A stretch of DNA of 64,000 nt, taken from Lachnospiraceae bacterium. GTDB lineage: Bacteria > Bacillota > Clostridia > Lachnospirales > Lachnospiraceae. Within the stretch, counting starts at the first letter, position 1; each line of letters opens with the position of its first letter. The notes under the pieces were generated by a model. The model ran no database searches. It worked only from the letters and a program-made list of their open reading frames with translations, and was not told where the DNA came from. The stretch is from the NCBI GenBank assembly GCA_910574865.1, contig CAJTDN010000003.1, positions 248,001-312,000 of the forward strand. Direction: 5' to 3'. The position numbers were made by a program, and so were the translations under genes. Of this stretch, positions 14,212-20,157 are shown in pieces.

Positions 14212-14940
14212 CTACTCCAAATACGGCCTGGACGGTGTCCCGGGATAGCTGCCCATGGACACGAGCAATCGCAGCCCCGCGTCCCGCGCGGTCAGCACGG
14301 CATTTTTTACCGCGCTGGCATCGCCGGTCACGGTCACGATGACCTCGTTCGAGTGGCTGGTCCCGCGCGTGGGGGTCATATACTTGATAATCTCCACCGG
14401 GGACGACTTCACGGCCAAATCCGCCATCACAAGCCCGATGGCGGCAGGAGATCCGCAAAAAAATCCGAACGGCCTGCCCAAGGGGGCATCAAACGCCATC
14501 TGCAACGCATAATCCGCATTTGCGGAATACGTAAACTCCAAATGTCCGGCCTCGCTGATATAAAGCTCGCCGGCATATTTTTCCGTATATTCCAAAGCAA
14601 TCTCCACGGCCCTCCGCACGTCGGACACGTTGTCGCCACCGATGACGATGAAATTGCCGTGGCCGCCCCACCCCTTCGTGTCACGGGGAAGCTCGATGGA
14701 AAGCACCTCCGTGTTCGTGGACTTCACGGCCTCGTCCACCGCGTTAATCTGTCCGGCCGCGCCAGTGCGCGAACTCAAAAGCCCGAGGCTTTTACATGCA
14801 CGCGGCAGGTTCATCTGCCCCAAGAGAGCCTCGCCGACCCCTGGAATTACCAGCCCGATGGTGTCAAGAACCGTCGTCCCTACGAATTCCGCCATGGAAC
14901 ATTCCATGGAAATGGACTTGATGTCGTGTACGTTTATCAT
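14212..14940 (-). CDS. pduB: PduB-type bacterial microcompartment shell protein (orphan)
   Basis: A 242-residue protein with two BMC domains in tandem. The first (about 18-125) has EFVGTTVLDTIGLVIPGV, SSRTGAAGQI and SIELPRDTKG; the second (about 130-235) has APLGRPFGFF, PAAIGLVMADLAVKSSPVE and LLVSMGSYP. These are the trimeric BMC-T features of PduB/EutL-like proteins, nearest to PduB. AGGAAGG precedes the ATG. No other shell protein, encapsulated enzyme or cofactor gene is within the window, so its partners must be elsewhere or lost. Confidence 0.85.
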   Translation of the reverse strand: MINVHDIKSISMECSMAEFVGTTVLDTIGLVIPGVGEALLGQMNLPRACKSLGLLSSRTGAAGQINAVDEAVKSTNTEVLSIELPRDTKGWGGHGNFIVIGGDNVSDVRRAVEIALEYTEKYAGELYISEAGHLEFTYSANADYALQMAFDAPLGRPFGFFCGSPAAIGLVMADLAVKSSPVEIIKYMTPTRGTSHSNEVIVTVTGDASAVKNAVLTARDAGLRLLVSMGSYPGTPSRPYLE

Positions 14941-15240: not shown

Positions 15241-15540
15241 TCAGCCGTATAACTTGTTTACCATCTTCTGTACCGCCACCGGGTCGTACCCGGCCGCCCG
15301 GAGCCTATTCAATCGGTCGGTACCTTTTCCCCATTTGCCATTAATAACTTCTTCGGCAATCTGGTCGTTGGTTTTTTTGGTTGGAGCGGCTGCGGACGCG
15401 CCGCCCGTATATGTACCGGCCAGCATCTTGTTGACGATTACCTGCACCGCGTTGGCATCGTATCCGGCGGCCTGCAGGCGGCTTGTACGATCCTGGCCAT
15501 TGCCCCAAGACCCGTTAATGACCTCGCGGGCGATTTCCCG
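15241..15540 (-). pseudogene. Phage endolysin C-terminal fragment with two CW_7 repeats
   Basis: Two adjacent repeats of the Cpl-7/CW_7 wall-binding module can be read: IAREVINGSWGNGQDRTSRL and IAEEVINGKWGKGTDRLNRL, each followed by AAGYD and a Val-rich helix and joined by an Ala/Thr linker (TYTGGASAAAPTKK). The frame opens directly after a TAA at 15541-15543, and no catalytic domain (amidase or lysozyme) precedes it. This is the tail of a prophage lysin left after deletion. An ATG at 15447 could still give a 68-residue single-repeat protein. Confidence 0.75.
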
Positions 15541-15581: not shown

Positions 15582-16052
15582 CTAGCTGTCAGCCATTCTC
15601 AGCATCAAAACCAGAATAATGAAACTTATAAATACATCGATAAACGTCATTAGCGAAAAGCATATAAACAAAAACATTTGGAACAAATCAAACGCGTTTA
15701 TCACAATAATGCATACAAAAACCAATATGTACACCAGTAGTTTCACGCTAGTCTGGGTGTACTGAAAAATAACGGTCATATAATGCCCTGTTTTCTTGAA
15801 TTCCTGGGTAAACGAACCATTACTAAATGCAATCAATATTGATTCTGCCGTAATTATAAAACCAAGCAATGTTCCCCATACGCCTATCATTACCTTGGAA
15901 ACATCAATCATGTTAATTGCATCAATAACAAAATGGATTTTCGTTATTTGTCTGCATATTATAAGCGACACCATTACCCCAAAGACAATTGAAAACCAGA
16001 ACAAGAAGCATCTTCGCCACAAATGCTTTTTATCTTTTTTCATTTTCACCAC
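15582..16052 (-). CDS. Four-TM membrane protein, RexB-like
   Basis: A 156-residue protein with four hydrophobic segments (about 13-33, 53-75, 93-118, 122-150). Size and topology match phage lambda RexB (144 residues, four TM). By memory, the second TM with its following loop also aligns: query GTLLGFIITAES then KKTGHYMTVI, RexB GTMIAILIAALT then REYGYMTSVV. RexB is a membrane channel that collapses the potential when RexA signals phage infection. The gene overlaps the stop of the upstream gene by one base (TAG/GTG), so the pair is translationally coupled. Base composition is A/T-rich against the neighbours. A KwaA-like protein is the main alternative. Confidence 0.5.
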   Translation of the reverse strand: MVKMKKDKKHLWRRCFLFWFSIVFGVMVSLIICRQITKIHFVIDAINMIDVSKVMIGVWGTLLGFIITAESILIAFSNGSFTQEFKKTGHYMTVIFQYTQTSVKLLVYILVFVCIIVINAFDLFQMFLFICFSLMTFIDVFISFIILVLMLRMADS

Positions 16053-17008
16053 TACGCTTCCTTGATTGAACTCTCATAAAAACTTCTAATCGCATCATAC
16101 ATAGAATCACTATCAATCGTTTTATTCTTTGTCATAACAAATTCTTTTCTTGTTACCATTTTGTCTTTCAACAAATTTACGGGTTCTTTATAAACACCTT
16201 GATTCACTTCAAATTTTTCGATATTTTCAATGTTTTTATTAACGAACTCCTGCATCTCATCTTTGCTCATAACCGCCGGAAATCCAAGCTTCTTTTTTCC
16301 AATCTTTCTGCGTAGCACAATTTCATATGTATCAAGTTCATCTATTCTGCTAATCATACTACCTATGAATCCCATTTTATCCCGTAAAAACAATCTCATT
16401 TCAGGAGTATTTTTTACTTTTAGTTGAAACAATGAATATCCCCTATCATTAGCAATTCGCTTAAAGGTATCATTTCGCAATTTAGGAGTACATATAAGTC
16501 TGTCAATTTTACTGCATTTAAATGTCGCATAGGCAGAAATAGCACTCGGGCGAGCTCCATTAAAGTTGAATTCCGCTCCCATAATGCCCTCATTGTAAAA
16601 CATCATGCAATGCGTAACTTCAGCAAGATTAAATTCACCCGAAACCAGCCCTACTATATTTTCCAATTTCCCCTCTTTCTCAATATATGGAAAAGCATCT
16701 GGTCTACATAAAACAAGTCTGAAAGCAACGTTTCCTTTCTCTTCGTTAATTTCATCCACCTCCACATAAAGCTTATCGCCCGTTTCGGTCATATATTCCA
16801 TTTTTTCCAATATTTCTTGTCTTTCTTCATTGTTTTTTGATTTTTTCAATCTAATATTTAGTTCTTGAAAGTATCTAAATACCAATAATGTTTTTTCAGG
16901 TTGATTTTTATAACTTACAAACGCATCTTCATCTCCCATACCTATTCGCTGTAACGTAATATCAAAATAATGTATACTTCTTTCTATTTTACCCTTCTTT
17001 TTTCCCAT
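16052..17008 (-). CDS. RexA-like cytoplasmic partner of the membrane protein
   Basis: A 318-residue soluble protein I do not recognise by a firm motif. Its order of elements follows lambda RexA: a basic start (KKKGKIERSIHYFDITL), a strand-rich part ending in LVSGEFNLAEVTHCMMFYNE and NGARPSAIS, then LKVKNTPEMRLFLRDKMGF and the strand DTYEIVLRRKIG. RexA is the sensor of the Rex exclusion system. ATG at 17008 has GGAGG seven bases ahead; the longer frame to 17107 has no such site. The promoter contains an SOS box. The gene is A/T-rich and lies in a prophage remnant. KwaB-like or another two-gene anti-phage pair remains possible. Confidence 0.45.
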   Translation of the reverse strand: MGKKKGKIERSIHYFDITLQRIGMGDEDAFVSYKNQPEKTLLVFRYFQELNIRLKKSKNNEERQEILEKMEYMTETGDKLYVEVDEINEEKGNVAFRLVLCRPDAFPYIEKEGKLENIVGLVSGEFNLAEVTHCMMFYNEGIMGAEFNFNGARPSAISAYATFKCSKIDRLICTPKLRNDTFKRIANDRGYSLFQLKVKNTPEMRLFLRDKMGFIGSMISRIDELDTYEIVLRRKIGKKKLGFPAVMSKDEMQEFVNKNIENIEKFEVNQGVYKEPVNLLKDKMVTRKEFVMTKNKTIDSDSMYDAIRSFYESSIKEA

Positions 17009-17124
17009 AACACAATCCTCCACACATCCCACACGAAAGAAAGTCACCGCCCTTATGATATACCATATTCTGACAGGTTTCAACAAAACGCAAGCAATTT
17101 CTTGCATTTCTTTTGTGCAATACT

Positions 17125-17153
17125 GTGATAGAACATTTGTTCTTGTTTGTCAA
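17125..17153 (-). promoter_or_regulatory. Promoter with SOS (LexA) box in front of the RexAB-like pair
   Basis: On the minus strand: TTGACA (17148-17153), 17 bp, TATCAC (17125-17130). The spacer ends with GAACAAATGTTC (17131-17142), a perfect match to the Gram-positive LexA consensus GAAC-RNRY-GTTC. LexA bound there would block the promoter until DNA damage. The start codon is about 110 nt downstream of the expected start site. Confidence 0.65.
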
Positions 17154-17252: not shown

Positions 17253-17522
17253 TTATAACATATTACCACATTCAAACCCGCCATGAACCGCCATTTTCAA
17301 AAAATCTTTTATTTTTTTCCAGCAACTGTTTTCCGTGTATTTCACCTTCCGCTTCGGGAACATCTGGTTCATCCTCATGGCCACCTGCGCCCAGGCCAGG
17401 TTGTCAATGTAGTATAGGCGAAACATTGTCCGCAACTCGCTCTTCTCAATCCCTTGTATGTACTCCTCGACCTCGTTCTGCTTCTCCAGAAGCTTCGCCT
17501 CCATCTTTCCAAGAAGAGCCAT
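17253..17522 (-). pseudogene. ArpU/sigma-like phage late-regulator fragment
   Basis: The C-terminal part holds a sigma-70-region-4-like helix-turn-helix (LRTMFRLYYIDNLAWAQVAM) of the kind found in ArpU/DUF1492 late regulators of Firmicute phages, with a helical region before it. The N-terminal half of such proteins is missing. The frame continues upstream into DNA that codes, in another frame, for an antirepressor, so a deletion probably fused the two genes near 17520-17540. The start is uncertain (ATG 17522 or 17549). Confidence 0.5.
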
Positions 17523-17789
17523 CTTTCTTTCCAATCTCCTTGTAAGCATCAGCTCCCTTACCGCCGAGCACGTCAATCACCGTCTTGTTGACCGTATCTT
17601 CAAGCACCCGTTGTTGACCGTAATCTAGGGTCATGTTGTTCTCCAAGTTCGAAATACGATTTTCATGGTCATCCACCATGCCGAGCCGAATCCGCATCAT
17701 TTCTATTTGCGACAAGGGCTTGACTTTCCTAAAGTACGAATCAACCAGTTTTCGCTGAAATTCTTCAATACTATACGAAAGGAGAAATT
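17446..17789 (-). pseudogene. Phage antirepressor (ORF6C/KilA-C type) fragment
   Basis: The frame reads IEEFQRKLVDSYFRKVKPL, then QIEMMRIRLGMVDDHENRI, then MTLDYGQQRVLE and LGGKGADAYKEIGKK. This is the C-terminal coiled-coil and ORF6C-like part of phage antirepressors. It begins after a stop codon and loses homology after IGKK, where it runs out of frame into the ArpU fragment. It is truncated at both ends. Confidence 0.55.
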
Positions 17790-18876: not shown

Positions 18877-19629
18877 ATGGGTCTGGGAAGAAGAATAATA
18901 CAATTAAGAAAAGAAAACGGATACACGAGAGAGAAGCTTGCCGAAATCCTTGAAATATCTCCATACACATTAAGAAATTATGAATTAGAAGTTACTGATG
19001 CCGGACATCCTTTTTTGATAAAAGTTTCTGATTTATTTAATGTGTCAATAGATTATCTTATGGGTGTAACCGAGGAAAGAGAAAAAATGACTTCTCACAG
19101 TCTTAAATCTTCCGAATATGACATGGTAGAAAAATACCGCTTCATCTCCACCCACTCCCCGGACGGAGCAGTCGTGGTAGATACGGTACTGGATAGGGAG
19201 CATGCCATTGCGGAGAAGCTAAAAAAGAAGACCGAGCGGATTATCGACTTGGAGGAAAGGCTCGTCCCGAAACGGATATTTTCCTACCACGGGAAGATTG
19301 CCGCCGCAGGAACCAGCTACGGGTTCGACGACATCACTTCCGGGACAATCGAGGTGCCACTGAACAAGGCGAACGAGAGTGCGGACTACACCATAGGGGT
19401 CAACGGCGACAGCATGGAACCCACGTACTACGACGGCGACATCGTGTACGTCCAGAAAGCCACGCACCTGGACGTGGGGGATGTCGGGATTTTCCAGAAA
19501 GACAACTGCATCTATATCAAGGAAGTCGGTGAGAACGGCCTGCTTTCCCACAACGAAAATTACAAGCCCATGACCAACGGCGGCGATGTCATCTGCCTGG
19601 GAAAGGTGCTGGGAAGGGTCGAGGAATGA
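18877..19629 (+). CDS. CI-like prophage repressor with S24 autoprotease domain
   Basis: A 250-residue repressor. The XRE helix-turn-helix occupies residues 5-62 and a helical linker 70-130. The LexA/S24 peptidase domain follows, with cleavage site Ala144-Gly145 (IAAAG), nucleophile Ser179 (NGDSMEPTY) and Lys215 (CIYIKEV). All three are present, so RecA-stimulated self-cleavage on DNA damage should work. It faces the Cro-like gene. The N-terminal coding half is A/T-rich while the peptidase half is G/C-rich, which suggests a mosaic gene. Confidence 0.9.
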   Translation: MGLGRRIIQLRKENGYTREKLAEILEISPYTLRNYELEVTDAGHPFLIKVSDLFNVSIDYLMGVTEEREKMTSHSLKSSEYDMVEKYRFISTHSPDGAVVVDTVLDREHAIAEKLKKKTERIIDLEERLVPKRIFSYHGKIAAAGTSYGFDDITSGTIEVPLNKANESADYTIGVNGDSMEPTYYDGDIVYVQKATHLDVGDVGIFQKDNCIYIKEVGENGLLSHNENYKPMTNGGDVICLGKVLGRVEE

Positions 19630-19678: not shown

Positions 19679-19909
19679 TTGAAAATCAACTATTCAAAGC
19701 AAGCCGTAAAGTTTCTTAGCAAACAAGACAAATCAACGCAAAAGAGAATTGTTGTCGCAATCAACAAACTGCCAAACGGTGACGTTAAAAAATTACAAGG
19801 GAAAATCGGATATCGTCTTCGCGTTGGGAATTACCGCATTATATTCAACGCTTTCGGGAATATCCTATACATTGAAGAAATCAACAACCGCGGGCAAATC
19901 TATAAATAG
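19679..19909 (+). CDS. RelE/ParE-type toxin
   Basis: A 76-residue basic protein (INYSKQAVKFLSKQDKSTQK, YRLRVGNYRIIF, IEEINNRGQIYK) with the RelE mRNA-interferase fold pattern. The start is TTG at 19679 behind AAGGGGAG. It is the first gene of a two-gene module, with the antitoxin 11 bp downstream, and lies between the prophage repressor and the integrase fragment. Confidence 0.8.
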   Translation: MKINYSKQAVKFLSKQDKSTQKRIVVAINKLPNGDVKKLQGKIGYRLRVGNYRIIFNAFGNILYIEEINNRGQIYK

Positions 19910-19920
19910 GAGGTTTTATC

Positions 19921-20157
19921 ATGAACGCTATAAAAGAAAGAATACTAGGTGCTGTCACCATTATGAATGATTCTGATGCGGAAAAAGTATGGAACTTTGT
20001 AATTGAAAACCTTTCTCCAAAATCATGGGACGATATTGAGGAAGTGCCCCCTGATGAATGGGATTTGAAAATGCTTGAAGATATAGACAAGAACCCGGAT
20101 TGCCGTGAATTCGTATCCCAAGACGACTTACTAAAAGAATTAAATCTCACCCTATAG
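19921..20157 (+). CDS. Antitoxin of RelE-type module
   Basis: A 78-residue acidic protein (IKERILGAVTIMNDSDAEKV, WDDIEEVPPDEWDLKML) with a helical N-terminus and an acidic tail, as in toxin-first RelE/HigB modules of clostridia. AGGAGGTTTTATC precedes the ATG. No DNA-binding motif is obvious. Confidence 0.65.
   Translation: MNAIKERILGAVTIMNDSDAEKVWNFVIENLSPKSWDDIEEVPPDEWDLKMLEDIDKNPDCREFVSQDDLLKELNLTL

Follow-up and report, generated by a model that had tools for sequence, protein, structure and literature searches.

Which kind of module is formed by two small A/T-rich genes surviving in a decayed prophage of a Lachnospiraceae bacterium, and which signal would switch it on? The locus lay in a stretch of 64,000 nucleotides (assembly GCA_910574865.1, contig CAJTDN010000003.1, positions 248,001 to 312,000; hereafter the window), and it comprised a soluble-protein gene and a membrane-protein gene at 17008-16052 and 16052-15582 of the minus strand, respectively, preceded by a promoter that started at 17153. 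The original prediction, made from the letters alone, had read it as a pair of the kind of RexA/RexB of phage lambda, placed under the SOS response. Our analysis established that (i) the soluble protein was a distant homologue of lambda RexA, (ii) the soluble gene and the small membrane gene made up a conserved two-gene unit, and (iii) a LexA-type box was located between the -35 and -10 elements of the pair's promoter and recurred before divergent relatives. Probably, the pair was an exclusion module of the RexAB type that came from a temperate phage of Firmicutes and had outlived much of its prophage; it would be derepressed in the SOS response, act on the membrane, and abort infection.

The RexA-like protein and its membrane partner

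The soluble gene (16052..17008) encoded 318 residues, its ATG being preceded by GGAGG at 8 nt, and the membrane gene (15582..16052) encoded 156 residues from a GTG that shared one base with the stop codon of the soluble gene; both open reading frames (ORFs) and their one-base overlap were as originally described. An ATG three codons inward was a possible alternative start of the membrane ORF. The guanine-plus-cytosine (GC) contents of the two genes were 33% and 34%, respectively, against 51% for the window, in line with the A/T richness noted from the outset.

In Pfam, the soluble protein matched DUF6731 (PF20505; E 6e-8, 33 bits, cut-off 27) and, weakly, T3SchapCesA, with no match to Pfam RexA (PF15969), which lambda RexA as a control hit at 1e-97; the soluble gene was also taken in by phrog_10865. 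When the model of the soluble protein was compared with the PDB, the top match was lambda RexA (8TWQ), placing the protein in the RexA (split RdgC-like) fold. The family-level comparison with RexA by hhalign gave E 2.8e-6 over 196 columns with a score of 48, while 60 column shuffles scored at most 20.9, and the match was collinear and spanned the C-terminal two thirds. A family hidden Markov model (HMM) searched in reverse against four RexA sequences gave a best E of 1.5e-4; an HMM built from the four RexA sequences gave a best E of 0.065 against 40 family members, leaving the kinship without support in that direction, and the PADLOC RexA model matched 1/40 soluble members. A search of predicted viral structures with the soluble model gave four matches below 0.001, all of them uncharacterised phage proteins (best TM-score 0.68). 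The DNA-binding residues of RexA are R219 and K221, according to the available part of PMC11077077; with columns matched by eye, the K221 position was K or R in 33 of the 40 members, the R219 position was so in 12 of them, and both columns were gapped in the soluble protein of the window.

The RexB-like assignment of the membrane ORF drew on its AlphaFold model and on co-occurrence. The model displayed four long helices (residues 5-34, 51-77, 90-117, and 123-155), and a simple hydropathy scan marked five hydrophobic stretches; the four transmembrane (TM) helices originally proposed are plausible on this model. The PDB search with the membrane-protein model returned one weak match only. As far as the available text of PMC12894663 goes, HHpred matched the first Pseudomonas putida gene to RexA and likewise gave no homologue for the corresponding partner.

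A downstream membrane ORF, defined as one of >120 aa with at least two hydrophobic stretches and a start -60 to +300 nt from the end of the soluble gene, was present in 47 of 49 loci examined and in 41 of 43 non-redundant ones (ORFs of 151-207 aa). The two exceptions were L022, which was cut by a contig end, and L046, in which the frame was present but overlapping. A small membrane protein, modelled with four helices in the window, was accordingly encoded directly downstream of the soluble gene in these loci, and the co-occurrence in other genomes foreseen by the original prediction was borne out; its Rex-type reading gained support from this pairing together with the top structural match and the hhalign agreement. 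The membrane gene was also found in seven family-level genomes besides the window (L005-L011), in G008, and in L019; L007 and L009 were probably the same loci as L020 and L027. Compared with G008, the two genes displayed nonsynonymous (pN) values of 0.16 and 0.22 and synonymous (pS) values of 0.85 and 0.83. The soluble gene of the closest relative, L004 (in G008), was broken near its start, with the first 45 residues in another frame and one stop, which might reflect pseudogenisation or faulty assembly.

Counting the window genome, the soluble protein was found by sequence in 3/98 related genomes and 2/295 genomes of the order, and the membrane protein in 2/61 genomes; PF20505 was found in 8/397 genomes of the bacterial family, and a nine-row model searched across the class found 2/291 genomes, the other being L073. 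The control genome of Methanocaldococcus jannaschii gave a PF20505 match below the cut-off. Single-sequence searches with the soluble protein in viral contigs, phages, and plasmids, a single-sequence search with the membrane protein in viral contigs, and a two-row alignment search in viral contigs gave no match; these searches missed the viral contig L112, a 31% relative found later via its promoter. As queries, the typical member L007 retrieved two phage records and no plasmid, and two further members retrieved five phage records each. The L112 pair was aligned with the window pair at 31% over 254 residues (E 2e-33) for the soluble protein and at 28% over 99 for the membrane partner; it was missed by the family HMMs among 45 promoter-bearing viral contigs and recognised by ORF reading. 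The family HMM thus misses the window's own subfamily, and the family counts are lower bounds.

The LexA-type box and the promoter slot

By sequence reading, promoter P1 on the minus strand consisted of TTGACA (17153-17148), a 17-nt spacer, and TATCAC (17130-17125). The spacer ended in the LexA-type (SOS) box GAACAAATGTTC (17142-17131, minus strand), which was the sole match to GAACRNRYGTTC in the window; the fit to GAAC-RNRY-GTTC was exact, as first noted. A terminator-like hairpin with a T run (17190-17176, minus strand) separated P1 from the upstream ArpU-like gene (the scan found 3 such sites in the region against 1.6 expected). A possible second promoter without a box, P2 (TTGAAA-17-TATCAT, 17083-17055, minus strand), came from a consensus scan; P2-type sites were not enriched, with 2 found against 7.2 expected from shuffles. 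The best-scoring promoter, again without a box, was located at -56 to -75 in 17/51 members by our own count, for which no null was computed.

Within the 300 bp that precede the soluble gene, 11 of 51 members had an exact GAACNNNNGTTC (GAAC-N4-GTTC). A Markov null averaged 0.1 over 200 runs and never exceeded 2, and each of twelve rearranged patterns gave 0 or 1; in the remainder of these loci, with the window excluded, the exact box occurred twice in 431,091 bases. The upstream regions of L053/L067 (88% over 301 nt) and L021/L068 (83% over 105) were related, so these boxes represent about nine independent cases by our own count. The RNRY centre of GAACRNRYGTTC was satisfied by 10 of the 11 family boxes, and the box was directly followed in 9/11 by a TA-starting hexamer in the -10 position (exactly TATAAT in L009, L011, L015, and L021), 5 of these 9 having TTGACA as the -35; the box is placed inside a promoter in such relatives as well as in the window. 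L007 and a fragment in G004 (L003) had the same promoter layout with one box mismatch. Allowing up to one mismatch added little (13/51 members, against a null with a mean of 3.4 and a maximum of 9 and up to 9 for rearranged patterns). Judged by this recurrence, the box is a real family-level feature, though weak as a single motif, and it is in line with the originally anticipated departure from lambda, in which rexAB is expressed with cI.

Boxes of the same kind were seen before genes of the host: (i) at recA, GAACAATTGTTC started 34 nt before the ORF and was of the GAAC-N4-GTTC type with a centre not fitting RNRY; (ii) uvrB, named by eye, had the GAAC-N4-GTTC box GAACGTATGTTC upstream; and (iii) lexA had three one-mismatch boxes upstream, a count with no control behind it. 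A genome-wide box count was rejected as proof of a regulon (16 against 20 in the control).

The promoter was not reserved for the pair. The exact P1 was present in 45 stretches of viral contigs, and the genes behind it, read by eye, included lexA, recA, many unknown phage genes, and the L112 pair; an exclusive link with the pair was rejected, since nearly all copies read preceded other genes. The SOS promoter serves exchangeable cargo, the Rex-type pair being one of several.

Several viral contigs illustrated other cargo. L110 and L134 had the SOS promoter sequence of L112 before a lone gene, which encoded 317 aa with one hydrophobic stretch, the leader of L110 being nearly identical to that of L112 with a different single gene behind it. 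In L099, L123, L126, L130, and L131 (and L116, cut short), the exact promoter preceded a recurrent pair of 110-127-aa and 337-378-aa proteins. In L138, the same kind of SOS promoter was located, by eye, between ArpU-like and terminase genes, and 87-1796 nt downstream it had a different 329-aa soluble gene and, after it, a 241-aa membrane gene in which five stretches were hydrophobic; the two may be an even remoter pair of the same kind.

The neighbours of the family were surveyed with 72 downstream and 58 upstream proteins chosen from 116 and 106, respectively, the tallies being of proteins and not of loci. Among the PHROGs families listed, terminase small subunit reached up to 16 (phrog_2606), terminase large subunit up to 14 (phrog_2), and transcriptional activator or regulator 10 and 10 (phrog_248 and phrog_36, for which 'late' is our own reading); endolysin and integrase genes also occurred. 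In phage AP45, both genes of the pair were annotated as hypothetical and were followed by a small minus-strand terminase small subunit gene, a DNA-binding protein, and the terminase large subunit. In Streptococcus phage Javan1 (L075), the soluble gene was the last annotated gene ahead of the small terminase gene, and an unannotated membrane gene, after 9918, lay between the DUF6731 gene and that terminase gene.

Prophage setting and proposed function of the pair

The surroundings were those of a decayed prophage. A CW_7 lysin repeat (15244..15447, minus strand; PF08230, E 4e-19) was the next phage remnant downstream, and a CI-type repressor with helix-turn-helix (HTH) and Peptidase_S24 domains (18877..19626, plus strand; PF00717, E 5e-14) lay on the other side; together with an ORF6C piece and a further HTH gene, they exceeded Pfam cut-offs. 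The prophage remnants of the original prediction stood in these four cases, and the ArpU/DUF1492-like ORF upstream of the pair (17256..17576, minus strand; PF07374, E 3e-4) fell narrowly short of its cut-off (21.3 bits, with 21.5 required). From the pair to the lysin repeat, the ORF list showed no head or tail genes. The repressor was oriented divergently at a distance of about 1.9 kb, and the pair was preceded by the terminator-like site and by a promoter of its own, so the pair had neither the immunity-region location nor the expression with cI of the lambda genes. Beside the repressor, a ParE-like toxin ORF just under its Pfam cut-off and a small ORF behind it (19679-20154) formed a possible toxin-antitoxin pair, and a protein with two bacterial microcompartment shell (BMC) matches (14215-14940) adjoined the prophage remnant.

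A mechanism for the exclusion module can be proposed as follows. LexA, judging from the box, would keep the pair's promoter low, and P2 may provide a basal level; DNA damage, caused by a genotoxin or by a phage infection in which DNA is harmed or recombined, would relieve LexA and raise the amount of the RexA-like sensor. By analogy with lambda and P. putida RexAB (available part of PMC12894663), the sensor would bind DNA or DNA-protein complexes and activate the membrane protein, which would permeabilise or depolarise the membrane, so that growth would stop and the infection would abort. The pair was intact and, by pN against pS, under selection in a decayed prophage, which favours service to the host over the rival explanations.

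Several observations set limits to this reading. The RexB kinship of the membrane partner found no backing in hhalign (E 0.18, not above shuffles, with only four RexB sequences) or in four-sequence HMMs (nothing above shuffles). Contrary to the original expectation of cI neighbours, none of the annotated relatives' records examined placed the pair next to cI, and no repressor family figured in the 25 commonest shown of the neighbour families (140 upstream, 103 downstream), which is not proof of absence; relatives of the pair often adjoined terminase genes instead. As for the promoter, its -10 TATCAC was imperfect, P1 was absent from the promoter-scan output, basal expression from P2 was possible, the exact box was missing upstream in 40/51 members, and 23 of 100 shuffled windows held at least one GAACRNRYGTTC box, making a single box weak evidence.

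Among the alternatives, a lytic-commitment module has a small but appreciable chance. The RexA-like protein, made in the SOS response, would bind DNA and drive the inducing prophage into the lytic cycle (compare lambda RexA on CI/Cro), the membrane protein would tune the timing, and exclusion would be a by-product. SOS induces many prophages, the window retains an S24-type repressor, and relatives of the pair often have transcriptional activators ahead of them and terminase genes behind; in lambda, moreover, RexA biases the switch independently of RexB (available part of PMC11077077). This alternative sits poorly with the terminator-like site and separate promoter in front of the pair and with the membrane gene following in 41/43 loci, and the persistence of an intact pair where no head or tail gene is left up to the lysin repeat suits a host-serving defence better.

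It is unlikely that the two genes form a toxin or suicide pair induced by damage and without a phage target, in which an SOS-switched pore would slow damaged cells and the RexA-like protein would be its activator or brake. The LexA-type promoter and the small membrane protein would fit, and SOS-controlled membrane toxins comparable to such a pore are known. Phages carry relatives of the pair, however, and in the available part of PMC12894663 the characterised homologues act in exclusion, although RexA overproduction there leads to RexB-type membrane harm without a phage. It is very improbable that the GAAC-N4-GTTC palindrome arose by chance or is a phage-repressor operator: the shuffled windows and the genome-wide count would allow it, but the box in 11/51 upstream regions, where the null mean was 0.1, and the host recA and uvrB boxes argue otherwise, and the lack of a second copy in the window speaks against a CI operator repeated within that stretch. 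A system like Kiwa, in which a KwaA membrane protein is paired with KwaB, with which the original prediction had suggested a comparison and which shares the coarse architecture of a soluble protein of about 300 aa plus a four-TM protein, was rejected and has a negligible chance, since the best fold match was RexA, no Pfam match to KwaB was obtained, and neither KwaA nor KwaB was among the PADLOC matches (E ≤0.01) of 39 and 40 members, a genome-wide PF16162 search without matches being uninformative because its controls were silent too.

Beyond the exclusion module of the window, the evidence leans towards a wider statement: RexAB would have a large Firmicute branch, composed of DUF6731 plus a small membrane partner and often carried as cargo before terminase genes, and one wing of it would be LexA-wired as a membrane exclusion system armed by DNA damage, that done by an invading or inducing phage included, with the same kind of SOS promoter slot carrying other cargo as well, either soluble-plus-membrane pairs or single genes. 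Some prophage defences may then be switched on by damage instead of being constantly on, and the older idea of Rex answering to DNA or recombination intermediates becomes testable in easily handled Bacillota.

Comparison with known systems

In Firmicutes, several publication titles use RexAB for a nuclease and not for the phage-exclusion pair. The soluble gene belongs to DUF6731 (PF20505)/phrog_10865, described solely as of unknown function and not named in any paper of the literature library searched; a Pfam family of this kind thereby gains a proposed role. No paper among those listed in the literature searches connected DUF6731, or any pair from Firmicutes, with Rex or placed a Rex pair under LexA, judged mostly by titles and the beginnings of abstracts; in the available text, 'Firmicutes' and 'DUF' had 0 mentions in PMC11077077 and PMC12894663, and 'SOS' had 0 in PMC12894663. 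Among PADLOC candidates (E ≤0.01), PDC-M67A matched 2/40 soluble members, and PDC-M67B and PDC-M18B matched 3/39 and 9/39 membrane members, respectively, so parts of the family were already flagged as candidate defence genes, whereas the two proteins of the window matched no PADLOC model; the names PDC-M67 and PDC-M18 were not found in the literature search.

As of January 2026, five RexAB-like systems had been described, those of lambda, P. putida, and actinophages (available part of PMC12894663), to which about 40 non-redundant candidate pairs (41 seen) are added here. RexABpp of P. putida resembles the window pair in its RexA-like first gene, its four-TM second gene, and its location in a cryptic prophage; phage exclusion was shown for RexABpp and for the actinophage pairs Sbash gp30/31, CarolAnn gp44/43, and Butters gp30/31 (same part of PMC12894663), whereas exclusion by the window pair is a prediction. 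With lambda RexA/RexB (PF15969, PF15968; PDB 8TWQ), the window pair shares the RexA-fold soluble protein, the small membrane protein encoded directly after it, and the temperate-phage origin. It differs in three respects: (i) its soluble protein has no Pfam RexA match; (ii) its membrane partner has no RexB sequence match; and (iii) it is located away from cI, as are the Rex pairs of some actinophages (available part of PMC11077077), and is served by a promoter of its own that carries a LexA-type box, whereas the lambda genes are expressed with cI; this wiring, in which a Rex-type pair stands behind a DNA-damage-response promoter, is foreign to lambda.
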